Shown: positions 2,454-6,034 of the stretch, in pieces
Position numbering within the stretch: position 1 is the first letter of the stretch
Layout of the letters: every line of letters begins with the position of its first letter
Virus record (IMG/VR): IMGVR_UViG_3300020438_000007
Span: 62,001 to 126,000 of that record
Length of the DNA: 64,000 nt
Direction: 5' to 3' (one strand)
Source of the DNA: a virus
Made by a program: the position numbers and the translations under genes
The notes under the pieces: model-generated
Told to the model about the DNA's origin: nothing
Database searches by the model: none
Seen by the model: only the letters and a program-made list of their open reading frames with translations

Positions 2454-2610
2454 CAAACTCTCCTTTTCTAGCTAAATATACTTTAACATTATTATAATGC
2501 TTTTCTATACTTTGTGCAAACCAATTTGCTGGATCTCTTGATTCAAAAACTTTCATCTGTGATTCAGAAAATATGCCGTTGTCTGTCCAACATACAATGT
2601 AACGTGTCAT
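2446..2610 (-). CDS. Hypothetical 54-aa protein downstream of gene 43
   Basis: Short gene starting MTRYIVCWTDNGIFSESQMK, 54 residues, mixed alpha/beta, no motif I recognise. Its ATG overlaps the gene 43 stop as ATGA and its TAA overlaps the following nucleotidyltransferase start by 8 nt, so it sits exactly in a coupled series. Tryptophan and tyrosine content and the absence of stops argue for real coding. Function unknown. Confidence 0.65.
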   Translation of the reverse strand: MTRYIVCWTDNGIFSESQMKVFESRDPANWFAQSIEKHYNNVKVYLARKGEFDD

Positions 2611-5111
2611 GCGAAGAAGGATTCAAGTGTATTCTTACGTTCGGTCTCCCAACCGATACAATCTAGAATAACCTTTACAGGTTCTAGGAATGATTTGCTA
2701 AATTGCAATTCATAGTCTACATGTTTATCTAGGTCGAGTTCAGTTGGGAAATCTTGAATGAAAGATATAACATTTTCGTGCATCCAATTAGGTGTCTTCA
2801 AGTAACAGAACTTGATCTTCTCACCATTATTAATCGCGGCATACTTATTGTCTATCCCCTTCTTCTTTGTATAGTGATTGTATAGGATGGCACCACGAAC
2901 ATGAATAGGACAACCCTTGTTATACATGTCAGAAGATGACTTCCACTTCTCCACGTTGGATACACTACGAGGGAATGCCACTTCTTCTGGTGGTAATGAT
3001 TTGAATTTAGTTCGACACTCCTCAATATAATCAATCACTTCATCCTCTGTTCCATTCATCAGTAAAGTAAAAGCATCTTTCAAGAACTTACGACATGGTG
3101 CAGGCGTAGAAGTTTTGATTGCTTCAATACCCATGATCTTAAGTTTAGCATCTTCATATCTAACTCCCTCACTATCCCATACGTTTAGAATATATCTTTT
3201 CTTTGCAGTCCATATACCAGTTGAAGCGATGTTCTCTCGCTTCATGATCATCTTTTGGTCGTAGGCGTTAACGTAGTCTGCCAGTTCTTGGTAAGAACTT
3301 TCAATATAAGGTTCAAGTTCCATCTCACAGACTTTATTAAGGAACGTGACAATGCCTTCAGTAGTTTTCTCTCTCCCCTCGTATACACGGTCAACCAAAG
3401 GACCCATATGCAAGTAAATAGAATCGGTATCACTAGCAATAACATAATCAATATCTTTTGTTTTTAAAATGGTATTCATCTTCTGGTTTATTTTATTCTC
3501 AATCCATCGGATTGATACTTGTCCAGATAGGGTAATGGCTTCTGCGTTCGCAAGTTTATAATAGCGAAAGTATTGATTACCAATAGCACCATAAGCACTG
3601 TTAAGGGCAATCTTCTTGGACATTTGGACGTTGTTGCATCTTGCAATCTCCTTTTCAAGTTCTTTAGTAGGGGTTTTTTCATAGGCTTGTTTTGCTTTGA
3701 TCATCCTCTTCTTGAAGATGACACGTTCATTATACATCTTCTCCATCAACTCAGGTAGGAAACCTTTCTTGTCCTTACTAAACATTGCACCGTTGGCACA
3801 AACTGCATATTCCTTATACATCTCAAAAGTAATCTCTTGATTGAGAAGTTTATCCACTGTGGCACTAGGATGTCTCTTTTCCTGTAATGTTTCTGGGGAG
3901 ATATTGTATTGCATAATCAAATGCGGATACAGTGAGTTCAAGTCAAAAGATACCACCCATTCATATCTACCAGGCTTAGGTTCTTTGACATACGCACCAG
4001 CATATTTCTCATCTTTCTTGTTACGATCCTTCTGTGGGATCACAATGTTTTTCTTTTTGAGATAGTTGTAGATGATCGCATCCCATGTACGAACTTGAAA
4101 CGCAACATCAGTAAAGTTGATCTTTGCATCATATGCTCGAGTACAACATAGGTCAATCAACTTGAGTTTATCCTCAAGACGGTCAACCAGTTCCACGTCA
4201 ACGATGTTGTAATCTACAAACTTCTGCCAGTTCTTTGTATAGAACTCACGGAATGTATCAAACTCACTGTGATCCAACTTCTTTTGACCGAGTTCCACCA
4301 TGGCAATATGATCCAATTTGAAACTCTCTTGGTTTGAAGTTGCAGGAGATTTCTTGTATAGATCCAAGTAATCAATTACAGATACGCCTGCAATATCAAA
4401 GACGATATTTGCACGACCCATTATTGTGATTTCATTCTTTCTTACAATGCCCCAAGGAGAGAACTTCTTGGCCACCTTCTCACCCATGAGACGTTCTACC
4501 CTACCCACAAGGTAAGGGATATCATACAGTTCACAGTTCCACCCTGTAATGACCTCAGGCGTGTGTTTCTGCCACCAGTCTAGGAATGTATAGATCAGAC
4601 CTTCCTCGTTGTGGCAGTCAATGTAAGAGTAGTTCTTTCTGTTTGGATTGGTCTGGTATGGACGTGATCCAAAGGTAGTAATTCTTTTAGTATTGTAATC
4701 CTGTATTGTGATCAGTAGAAGTTCTTCTGCAACATTAAAGACATCAGGGAAACCACTCTCCGCAGCAACCTCGATGTCAATAGTAACTAGATTAATTTTG
4801 CTTAGATCAAACTTGATATCATCCTCTGGATAATTATCAGAGATATATTGATGTACATATCTCTCATTACCAAAAATATTAAAGTTTTGTACTTGCGAAT
4901 ACTTGTCGATAAACTGCCTACAATCCTTGATTGTGCCAGGTTTGATCGGCTCTACAGATTGACCGTCAAGAGTCTTCCACTTACTTCTTTTCTTTGTAGG
5001 TACATAAAAGGTAGGATGAAACTCCTCCCTGTCACTAAAATGTTTTCCATTTTCATATCCCCTGACCAACATACTGTTGCCGATCTGGAAAACATTAGTG
5101 TAGAATTTCAT
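2607..5111 (-). CDS. gp43: DNA polymerase gp43 (family B)
   Basis: Replicative family-B polymerase with proofreading exonuclease, 834 residues (T4 gp43 has 898). The exonuclease I motif TIDIEVAAE places Asp112 and Glu114 at the T4 numbering. Exo II (ITGWNCELYDIPYL) and Exo III (YNIVDVELV) follow. Polymerase motif A is DLNSLYPHLI, motif B KKIALNSAYGAIGN, and motif C SDTDSIYLHMG with the catalytic aspartates. The gene works with the clamp (13310-14002) and clamp loader (8410-8790, 10570-11517). It is joined by ATGA overlaps to the genes on both sides. No intein or intron interrupts it. Confidence 0.98.
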   Translation of the reverse strand: MKFYTNVFQIGNSMLVRGYENGKHFSDREEFHPTFYVPTKKRSKWKTLDGQSVEPIKPGTIKDCRQFIDKYSQVQNFNIFGNERYVHQYISDNYPEDDIKFDLSKINLVTIDIEVAAESGFPDVFNVAEELLLITIQDYNTKRITTFGSRPYQTNPNRKNYSYIDCHNEEGLIYTFLDWWQKHTPEVITGWNCELYDIPYLVGRVERLMGEKVAKKFSPWGIVRKNEITIMGRANIVFDIAGVSVIDYLDLYKKSPATSNQESFKLDHIAMVELGQKKLDHSEFDTFREFYTKNWQKFVDYNIVDVELVDRLEDKLKLIDLCCTRAYDAKINFTDVAFQVRTWDAIIYNYLKKKNIVIPQKDRNKKDEKYAGAYVKEPKPGRYEWVVSFDLNSLYPHLIMQYNISPETLQEKRHPSATVDKLLNQEITFEMYKEYAVCANGAMFSKDKKGFLPELMEKMYNERVIFKKRMIKAKQAYEKTPTKELEKEIARCNNVQMSKKIALNSAYGAIGNQYFRYYKLANAEAITLSGQVSIRWIENKINQKMNTILKTKDIDYVIASDTDSIYLHMGPLVDRVYEGREKTTEGIVTFLNKVCEMELEPYIESSYQELADYVNAYDQKMIMKRENIASTGIWTAKKRYILNVWDSEGVRYEDAKLKIMGIEAIKTSTPAPCRKFLKDAFTLLMNGTEDEVIDYIEECRTKFKSLPPEEVAFPRSVSNVEKWKSSSDMYNKGCPIHVRGAILYNHYTKKKGIDNKYAAINNGEKIKFCYLKTPNWMHENVISFIQDFPTELDLDKHVDYELQFSKSFLEPVKVILDCIGWETERKNTLESFFA

Positions 5112-5368
5112 GCAGTTGCCAGTTTCAAATAAGAATCAATGAGTTCTCGGTGGGGTTCCACCAATGTTACTATTTTATCAGAACATATCATAATTTCAAC
5201 GTCGTCTGTTACCTTCTTTAACCAAGGCGACATATCATCACCCTCAAGTTCATAAGGTGATACAAGTTTGCAGTTTGGATCTCCAATATCAACAGCACCG
5301 ACTTCCTCTATCTTTGAGATAATAACGGCGCCATTAACTAGGATTAGTATCTTTACTTCCTGTTCCAT
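5108..5368 (-). CDS. Small beta-rich protein, Sm-like-looking paralogue
   Basis: An 86-residue protein upstream of gene 43, overlapping it by ATGA. It begins with alternating beta strands (VKILILVNGAVIISKIEEV), then has a SPY...MSPWL segment and an EIMICSDKIVTLVEP strand pair. The same order of elements appears in 5334-5669 and 23178-23594, so I treat the three as diverged paralogues with an Sm/LSm-like or other small-barrel layout. That fold suggestion is inference. A role in RNA binding or regulation near gene 43 is possible but unproven. Confidence 0.6.
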   Translation of the reverse strand: MEQEVKILILVNGAVIISKIEEVGAVDIGDPNCKLVSPYELEGDDMSPWLKKVTDDVEIMICSDKIVTLVEPHRELIDSYLKLATA

Positions 5369-5669
5369 AAATTTTAGTCTCGTAAGATTGTTTTACCATA
5401 GGTTTTGGTTCTACTATCGCAACGACCCAGCTGGGATCAATAGATATCTTTTTCTCATCAGATAAAGGCATCCAAGGATAGTATTGTACACTGTACTGTG
5501 TTTCTTCTTCCTCTTTTCCTTCTGTAAGTAACACAGGTGATTCAACCAACTTACAACAGTAAGCGTTTTCAAGAACGATGAAGATAGGTTTTTGATCCTC
5601 ATCTACAAGTTCTTTCACATCTGCGATGACTTCTTCGTTAGATTTTAGTAGAACTAGTTTGACGGTCAT
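5334..5669 (-). CDS. Small beta-rich protein, Sm-like-looking paralogue
   Basis: A 111-residue protein beginning MTVKLVLLKSNEEVIADVKE, with an acidic loop, then YYPWMPLSDEKKISIDPSW and VVAIVEPKP. It shares the strand, PW and EP pattern with 5108-5368 and 23178-23594. Its 3' end overlaps the next gene by 35 nt, more than usual here. The ATG has no purine-rich ribosome binding site. It lies directly after the structured non-coding stretch and repeats a GGTGCAAT sequence found in the last hairpin of that stretch, so leader structure may affect its translation. Confidence 0.65.
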   Translation of the reverse strand: MTVKLVLLKSNEEVIADVKELVDEDQKPIFIVLENAYCCKLVESPVLLTEGKEEEETQYSVQYYPWMPLSDEKKISIDPSWVVAIVEPKPMVKQSYETKIYGTGSKDTNPS

Positions 5670-5679
5670 TGCACCAGTA

Positions 5680-6000
5680 TATAGTTTGTAAAGCGGATGG
5701 GTGGTATTGCACCACCGTTTACAAGTTGGAAACCTGTCGTAATACTTTTATACGACACCCGCATGAAAGACCATCTGCCCGACTCTCTTGAGTTGCATCT
5801 TAGGTCTTGAAAGAAAGAGGGGAGGTTGGGTTCCTGTGTACCAACAAAGAATGGGCATTACTACAGAGTAAATACATTCTTGCCTGAGACCCGACTGGTA
5901 AGTCGATTCTGCTTTCGCAGCAGCACCACCTGTGTCTCATCACCTTAACCAGCAGTATGCCAGTAAGTTTATTCAGTCACTCCCAATGTTGCGTCCAACA
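5680..6000 (-). ncRNA. Structured non-coding RNA or long structured leader of the gene 43 operon
   Basis: About 320 nt without a gene, downstream of a consensus sigma-70 promoter. Perfectly complementary segments, in plus-strand coordinates: 5884-5889 with 5934-5939, enclosing 5892-5896/5901-5905 and 5909-5912/5917-5920 (the last with a GAAA tetraloop in the transcript); 5847-5853 with 5875-5881, enclosing 5858-5862/5867-5871; 5825-5829 with 5841-5845; 5767-5772 with 5803-5808, enclosing 5782-5785/5790-5793; 5736-5741 with 5751-5756; and 5686-5692 with 5718-5724, enclosing 5700-5705/5711-5716. I found no T-run terminator before 5669, so the RNA may be the 5' leader of the downstream genes or be processed from it. 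It matches no RNA family I could recognise. Confidence 0.65.
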
Positions 6001-6005
6001 AACTT

Positions 6006-6034
6006 ATTATAGTACGGTCTGTGTGGAGTGTCAA
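6006..6034 (-). promoter_or_regulatory. Consensus sigma-70 promoter for the structured RNA / gene 43 operon
   Basis: Minus-strand TTGACA (plus 6029-6034) and TATAAT (plus 6006-6011) separated by exactly 17 nt, a perfect match to the host housekeeping consensus. Initiation would fall near 5999. The -35 box contains the stop codon of the upstream metallopeptidase gene. It is the strongest promoter match I saw in the window. Confidence 0.85.

Follow-up and report, generated by a model that had tools for sequence, protein, structure and literature searches.

The RNA discussed here belongs to the manA family (Rfam RF01745), which Weinberg et al. described in 2010; the available portion of that report regards it as certain that the motif is an RNA and that it is cis-regulatory, and as probable that it is a riboswitch (PMC2864571). 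In the available parts of other papers, manA is reported from cyanophage S-CREM1 by means of an Rfam search (PMC9964418), is mentioned in an introduction (PMC10665884) and serves as an alignment example (PMC7657543), and manA-II, from Leptotrichia, is a different motif (PMC11109978). Among the papers listed by our searches, in which subscription papers are thinly represented, there was no experiment on manA and no mention of a 3' extension.

ROOL and GOLLD offer a second point of comparison. According to the available part of a recent report (Nature 2025, PMC12286853), these are structured RNAs of unknown function that are encoded by phages and prophages, often lie near tRNA islands and form kissing loops. 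Like them, manA is phage-encoded and structured, has a tRNA neighborhood and, as predicted below, carries candidate kissing loops. However, manA is far smaller (about 190-234 nt) and is a member of neither family.

In this report, we analyze a manA copy within a 64-kb stretch of viral DNA (the window, by which we mean the entire stretch of 64,000 nucleotides) together with its relatives. Judged by its genes, the source is a T4-like cyanophage, and the parent virus record of 230,739 bases contains one manA. An earlier sequence-only reading of the window had proposed that a consensus sigma-70 promoter feeds a stem-rich RNA of no recognizable class, which might be a new phage noncoding RNA or a regulatory leader of the polymerase operon.

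A manA RNA behind a consensus promoter

A search with Rfam and Infernal returned manA over its full length and far above the cut-off (Table 1). The likeness extends to the main helices, the invariant loops and the cyanophage setting. Newness can therefore be claimed for part of the RNA only: the main body belongs to a known family, and the hairpin that follows on its 3' side matches no Rfam family. When the whole window was scanned with cmscan, nothing except manA and a tRNA exceeded gathering scores; tmRNA, group I intron, ROOL and GOLLD gave no match at that level.

Table 1. Features of the manA locus in the window
Feature	Position	Strand	Evidence or detail
Upstream gene, 232 aa	6031-6729	-	Pfam: no match
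Sigma-70-type promoter	6006-6034	-	TTGACA 6029-6034, 17-nt spacer, TATAAT 6006-6011
manA RNA (RF01745)	5815-6000	-	cmscan 186.7 bits, cut-off 55.2; model 1-192 of 192
Hairpin loop GUGGUG of manA	5924-5929	-	invariant in 32/32 aligned sequences
Loop ACCA of manA	5896-5899	-	invariant in 32/32 aligned sequences
3' hairpin of manA unit, 42 nt	5767-5808	-	model R1, 64.4 bits
tRNA-Gly(UCC) gene	5692-5762	-	RF00005, 51.3 bits, cut-off 29
First gene 3' of RNA unit, 111 aa, DUF6561	5334-5669	-	PF20198, E 3.4e-6, 27.4 bits, cut-off 27
Second gene, 86 aa, DUF6561	5108-5368	-	PF20198, E 1e-32
Gene 43, DNA polymerase family B	2607-5111	-	PF00136 + PF03104

The promoter was correctly recognized: a perfect TTGACA-17-TATAAT occurs once in the window, where shuffled sequences lead one to expect 0.04 (4 of 100 shuffles contained one). 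Weaker promoter-like sites (at least 9 of 12 positions) between 3000 and 9000 are at chance level, with 18 found and 18.2 expected. The promoter predicts a transcription start at about 5999-6000, and the sequence supports the proposal that a sigma-70-type promoter feeds a structured phage RNA. The TGA inside the -35 hexamer doubles as the stop codon of the upstream gene.

Two details of the sequence-only reading had to be corrected, since the stretch that it took to be free of genes, and to match no tRNA, contains a tRNA-Gly gene that scores well above the RF00005 cut-off. Behind this tRNA, a pair of DUF6561 genes separates the RNA unit from the polymerase gene. As a leader of the polymerase operon, the RNA is weakly supported at best: the tRNA and both DUF6561 genes precede gene 43, the ORFs that follow this RNA fall into 34 clusters at 116 loci among the matches listed, and at some loci a terminator or a tRNA lies between the RNA and the next gene. 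The surroundings in the window (tRNA-Gly, two DUF6561 genes, gene 43) also differ from the published contexts of manA, being absent from the sugar, nucleotide, ibpA and photosynthesis genes listed in the available portion of the original report (PMC2864571). Two further differences from the Rfam entry are that its model stops at 5815, without a counterpart of the window's hairpin, and that the data presented here call the cis-regulatory label into question.

Fold and covariation of manA

The stems counted by the sequence-only reading, at least ten, are helices of manA. Its three-way arrangement is the central junction of the manA model, whose closing stem (5934-5939/5885-5890) lies one base from the 5884-5889 first given, and the GAAA-capped hairpin within the junction appears as CUGC-GAAA-GCAG when the manA structure is fitted to the window.

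Covariation was assessed in an alignment of 32 diverse relatives with less than 90% similarity, drawn from 113 candidates. Pairing is conserved among them, with compensatory changes in 29 of 52 manA pairs. The covariation score was 0.319, versus 0.131 with shuffled partners and at most 0.090 with partners slid along the sequence. Pairing is weak in this alignment for the 5' hairpin (60.5% of cells) and for helix 11, an inner helix (41.4%), which may reflect badly aligned sequence in these regions. In the family's original alignment, the available part of the Rfam 14 paper gives 48 significant pairs for the manA structure (PMC7779021).

Folding energy was rejected as evidence for manA because its z score is near zero: for manA plus the hairpin, z was -0.18, with 86 of 200 shuffles at least as stable, and for the whole 321 nt, z was -1.12, with 10 of 100 shuffles at least as stable. 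The earlier reading had named a folding energy no better than that of shuffled sequence as grounds for abandoning its proposal, and the energy is indeed no better; the conserved pairing described above is the stronger test, and the RNA passed it.

Two loops of manA do not vary in the alignment (Table 1). The UGGU of GUGGUG can pair with ACCA, making these candidate kissing loops that might meet within one molecule or between molecules. We also considered whether GUGGUG might bind the acceptor ends of tRNAs and set this aside because the equally invariant ACCA loop in manA itself is a simpler partner. Mimicry of 16S rRNA was suggested by GACACAGGUGGUGC in manA, which resembles what we take to be the 16S sequence; it was set aside, and in that stretch GUGGUG and a few single bases alone are invariant among the 32 relatives.

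A hairpin on the 3' side of manA

The hairpin behind manA in the window has the consensus AGACC-UAAGAUGCA-ACUC-loop-GAGU-SGGGCAGAU-GGUCU, or, by segments, AGACC-UAAGA-UGC-A-ACUC-loop-GAGU-SGG-GCA-GAU-GGUCU. It matched no Rfam family at E values up to 10, and blastn against annotated phage records, again at E up to 10, gave three weak and unrelated matches. The hairpin is apparently undescribed.

We scanned the viral collection with a pattern that is independent of manA, although the letters named in the pattern are invariant in the resulting sequences by construction. The scan gave at least 119 stretches, or 120 with the window's copy. Of these listed occurrences, 98 lie 174-191 nt downstream of a strict manA core and 6 are accompanied by a divergent manA; in another 15 the contig ends early, yet the 3' end of manA is still visible, and 1 is truncated too far for a decision. 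In other words, 119 of 120 lie beside manA and the remaining one is cut off; among the matches listed, no hairpin clearly lacks manA. The converse association is partial, in that the hairpin follows manA in about a quarter of the listed loci (28 of 116).

The covariance model for the hairpin (R1) was built from 57 sequences, including the window's copy, and has 12 pairs, 4 of which show compensatory changes. RNAalifold alone predicts 11 pairs, all within these 12. The hairpin outperforms shuffled data on four measures but not on the fifth, the count of additional pair types (7 versus 7.0). Applied to 135 sources, the model gave 29 scores of at least 57 bits, many of them from sequences used to build it, and otherwise nothing above 16.1 bits. 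In 18 large records, it found the hairpin once each in 4, always beside manA, and a score of 16.3 bits in a fifth record is at chance level. There was no match in 12 isolate genomes. In S-CREM1, an abiF RNA match is reported about 100 nt behind manA in a table of the available part of the paper (PMC9964418); this may be the 3' hairpin of a manA unit.

The sequence of the hairpin recalls a known tertiary contact. The 11-nt GNRA tetraloop receptor has the form CCUAAG...UAUGG, the hairpin has CCUAAG...GAUGG, and many manA copies carry a GNRA-capped hairpin. However, the hairpin deviates at one receptor position, and the same hairpin co-occurs with GAAA, GAGA, GCAA, GGAA and GCAG loops. Docking of a GAAA loop of manA into the 3' hairpin was rejected as a requirement because of these other tetraloops. 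GNRA loops are moderately more common in listed copies with the hairpin, at about 34 of 41 versus 38 of 65 distinct cases by hand count.

Promoters and tRNAs at the 5' end

At least 132 manA loci were found among the matches listed, 127 of which, the window included, have 90 nt or more of upstream sequence. Because these loci are related to one another, counts across them are not independent. A sigma-70 match of 11 or 12 positions of 12 lies at the 5' end of manA in 114 of the 127 listed loci, versus 6 of 590 control windows; with a threshold of at least 9 of 12, the figures are 122 of 127 (8 of them at 9-10) and 104 of 590. The five loci below this threshold all have a tRNA or a tRNA-like cloverleaf at the 5' hairpin of manA: in four (L010, L058, L110 and L120), a tRNA-Thr ends there, and in L059 a tRNA-Gly-like cloverleaf does. 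Every one of the 127 listed loci thus has either a promoter-like match (122) or an abutting tRNA (5) at this position.

At 42 of the 127 listed loci (L003, L009, L013, L031 and 38 others, the window not among them), the promoter forms part of a composite element, in which the -35 hexamer lies inside an intrinsic terminator hairpin and the U-tract serves as the promoter spacer. Given this overlap, upstream transcription would stop where manA starts.

A place at the transcription start at nearly all listed loci, before genes that vary, is what one would expect of a 5' leader that is indifferent to the gene behind it and whose fold keeps RNase E or exonucleases off the transcript, or else aids read-through of terminators. 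Host RNase E is active during infection, and some loci do have terminator-like hairpins directly behind manA. This explanation deserves real weight, but we judge it unlikely. A general leader would be expected in more than one copy per genome; at five loci, a tRNA takes the place of the promoter in front of manA; and some copies would have little to act on, namely those where the next gene has a late-promoter-like motif in front of it and that of L110, where a terminator behind manA is followed by a new perfect promoter.

tRNA genes beside manA

In the window, the tRNA-Gly gene begins 4 nt behind the hairpin. Its folding is far more stable than that of shuffled sequences (z -4.02; 0 of 200 as good). 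It shares with RF00005 a cloverleaf, a 7-bp acceptor stem and the anticodon loop UUUCCAA, but it differs in its T-loop (UGCAAUA) and in a D-loop that lacks GG; ARAGORN, searching for tRNAs, did not report it, and the loops are not of the canonical kind. In the window and in L018, L021, L048, L080, L159 and L164, the tRNA-Gly(UCC) has the D-loop UAAAAGUAU and the T-loop UGCAAUA or UGCGAUA, and the usual contacts between D-loop and T-loop are missing. A form with a normal D-loop seems to occur in L166. Among annotated phage records, Pelagibacter phage Mosig alone matches at E values up to 0.01, with 76.7% identity. In DNA fetched around manA, the hairpin, gp32 or gp3, the tRNA-Gly pattern gave 15 listed matches (7 distinct sequences), each directly behind either manA (3) or the hairpin (12).

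Tallied independently of this pattern, tRNAs are concentrated near manA. ARAGORN finds 15 tRNAs in the 919,352 bases of the 132 listed loci, and 11 of these lie within 60 nt of manA on the same strand, where the rate elsewhere predicts 0.04; the four tRNA-Thr cases look like one lineage. In L006, L032, L049 and L085, a tRNA-Asn separates manA from the next gene, which is a different one in each, and in L008 a tRNA lies upstream of the manA promoter. The density of tRNAs in such phages is otherwise low, at 22 matches over the cut-off in 15 genomes.

This enrichment is the reason to consider manA as a processing cassette, shaping the ends or the expression of neighboring tRNA genes. We think this very improbable: 105 of the 116 listed loci have no tRNA directly behind manA, and no tRNA was found near the single manA in the 12 isolate genomes scanned.

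Sequences and genes behind manA

Downstream sequence was sufficient at 116 of the listed loci, including the window. Directly behind manA, these contain a tRNA (11 loci), a terminator detected by a simple scan (13) or a late-promoter-like motif (29), and 19 of the 28 loci with the hairpin have a U-tract after it. Overall, 63 of the 116 listed loci have at least one of these features before the next gene and 53 have none. To the latter belong 23 of the 24 listed gp32 loci, at which manA copies look like leaders; such loci count against a free-standing RNA and agree with control of the gene behind.

The motif CTAAATA is present in 14 of 106 distinct 110-nt stretches downstream of listed manA copies, versus 2.1 in shuffled sequence and between 1 and 3 of 110-120 windows chosen at random. 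The sequence NATAAATA is a reported late promoter in S-PM2, according to the available part of the source (PMC2984593), and we infer that CTAAATA may serve likewise.

Whether the hairpin is followed by a U-tract depends on what comes next. A U-tract is found at 3 of 22 distinct listed loci before gp32 and 0 of 4 before tRNA-Gly, the window's copy included among those without one, and at 45 of 51 with other followers; of the six exceptions, L166 seemingly precedes another form of tRNA-Gly. The p value of 3.6e-11 for this dependence is optimistic because the sequences are related. Such a pattern would be expected of a hairpin that terminates the RNA wherever nothing downstream relies on the promoter of manA. 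An attenuator, too, would have a terminator after an RNA domain, and this counts against a free-standing RNA.

The next ORF, defined mechanically as the first ATG frame of at least 40 aa, so that some clusters are perhaps not genes, falls into 34 clusters at the 116 listed loci, 16 of them singletons. With families assigned from cluster representatives, the largest listed cluster is the single-strand DNA-binding protein gp32 (24 loci), followed by talC (12), the window's DUF6561 (10), a 60-aa protein (7), a phosphomannomutase-like protein (6), Hsp20 (5) and PurS (3); smaller listed ones include a mannose-6-phosphate isomerase-like cupin (1) and large proteins of unknown function. In isolates, manA lies after gp23, after pstS, before talC, between regA and purL, after ferredoxin or before gp32. 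Fourteen isolate genomes, selected because they carry manA and with two near-identical pairs among them, were searched under strict filters, and each contains a single match.

Among 16 chosen viral contigs, 15 have a single manA. The exception, which argues against a free-standing RNA, is L076, a contig of 4,756 bases with two copies on the plus strand (near 137 and 3657), of which one precedes a 68-aa ORF and the other gp32. Another record (G002) has two gp32-like genes (C1:284-1177 and 158499-159401), one of them behind manA and its hairpin. Downstream of manA in L075, L086 and L101 are sequences that resemble the glutamine riboswitch, and elsewhere, outside the window, there is a weak match to this riboswitch (G000:C1:225996-226062, minus strand; 25.2 bits, cut-off 35).

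These data bear most directly on the original hypothesis, that manA is a cis-acting riboswitch or gene-specific leader through which a metabolite would control the gene that follows. Rfam types the family as cis-regulatory, manA often resides less than 50 nt from a start codon, and several next genes (talC, the phosphomannomutase-like and isomerase-like proteins, PurS and Hsp20) fit the published list; the 19 sugar-related ones among the 116 listed loci agree with the cis-regulatory reading. However, a consistent downstream regulon was not found, the clusters being many for an RNA that generally has one copy per genome, the largest encoding a DNA-binding protein and a tRNA standing directly behind manA at 11 listed loci. 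Together with the exchange of sites described next, these observations make metabolite-dependent control of the next gene improbable in our estimation.

Exchange of sites among three related phages

P-HM1, MED4-213 and P-HM2 are close relatives with the same recorded host, MED4; the gp32 proteins of P-HM1 and MED4-213 are 93% and 91% identical to that of P-HM2. In P-HM1 and MED4-213, manA lies between gp23 and gp3 with its own promoter in front and, judged by eye, a terminator-like CCTCG...CGAGG hairpin running into six T behind; the P-HM1 copy stands between terminator-like hairpins, also by eye, and the next gene in both phages retains its own CTAAATA motif. P-HM2 lacks this stretch of about 250 nt (by eye), and the flanks, including the CTAAATA motif and AGGAGG of the next gene, align.

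In P-HM2, manA resides instead between gp32 and a gp32 promoter that is common to all three phages. Where P-HM2 has manA, the gp32 leader of P-HM1 and its MED4-213 counterpart (L260, L261) have a 26-nt piece. In P-HM1, 18 of the 26 positions of this piece are identical to part of manA (p 0.0006 versus shuffles, for a resemblance noticed first and tested after), and the piece is likely a manA remnant. The P-HM1 manA is 93.3% identical to that of P-RSM6, 91.6% to that of P-SSM4 and 86.1% to that of P-HM2; on this ground, a fresh copy probably arrived and its predecessor decayed.

Regulation of the next gene alone would hardly explain a copy that is sealed off by hairpins and can give way to one at a different site. 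For a riboswitch in particular, the terminator-like hairpins around the P-HM1 copy are unexpected, as is a gp32 promoter whose sequence is the same in sister phages whether or not manA separates it from gp32.

Proposed role and implications

Given the variety of its sites, its promoters, its linkage to tRNAs and the exchange of sites, we read manA as a discrete RNA whose function is independent of the gene behind it and is most likely exerted in trans. We hold this reading to be somewhat more probable than not, and by no means assured. In the mechanism we propose, the unit would be made as an RNA of about 234 nt. Its 5' end would be the transcription start or, in the five related loci, the 3' end of the abutting tRNA. 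In stand-alone copies, an intrinsic terminator would set its 3' end; where a tRNA follows, as in the window, RNase P would do so by cutting at the 5' end of that tRNA, and the 4-nt gap in the window means that this cut would release the 3' end of the manA RNA. The fold would be held by the closing GGGAG/CUCCC stem and by the contact between the GUGGUG and ACCA loops. Because of the tRNA neighborhood and the host-type promoter, our likeliest guess, and it is only a guess, is that manA has a role in host takeover through translation or RNA turnover.

A fuller version goes further than we can comfortably defend, and we consider it slightly more apt to fail than to hold: that manA has been misfiled as a leader and is a single-copy, horizontally replaced, trans-acting phage RNA gene, found at many sites where a promoter or tRNA precedes it and a terminator, tRNA or gene follows, bearing in roughly one copy in four a receptor-like 3' domain not previously described, and perhaps self-assembling or partner-binding like ROOL and GOLLD.

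The hairpin lengthens the RNA that would have to be synthesized for any study of manA. The cultured sister phages P-HM1 and P-HM2, both recorded on MED4, provide a ready test of the trans-acting reading. Since 2010, the family has counted as a cis-regulatory element and probable riboswitch; if manA acts in trans instead, then a search for its ligand would be the wrong search.
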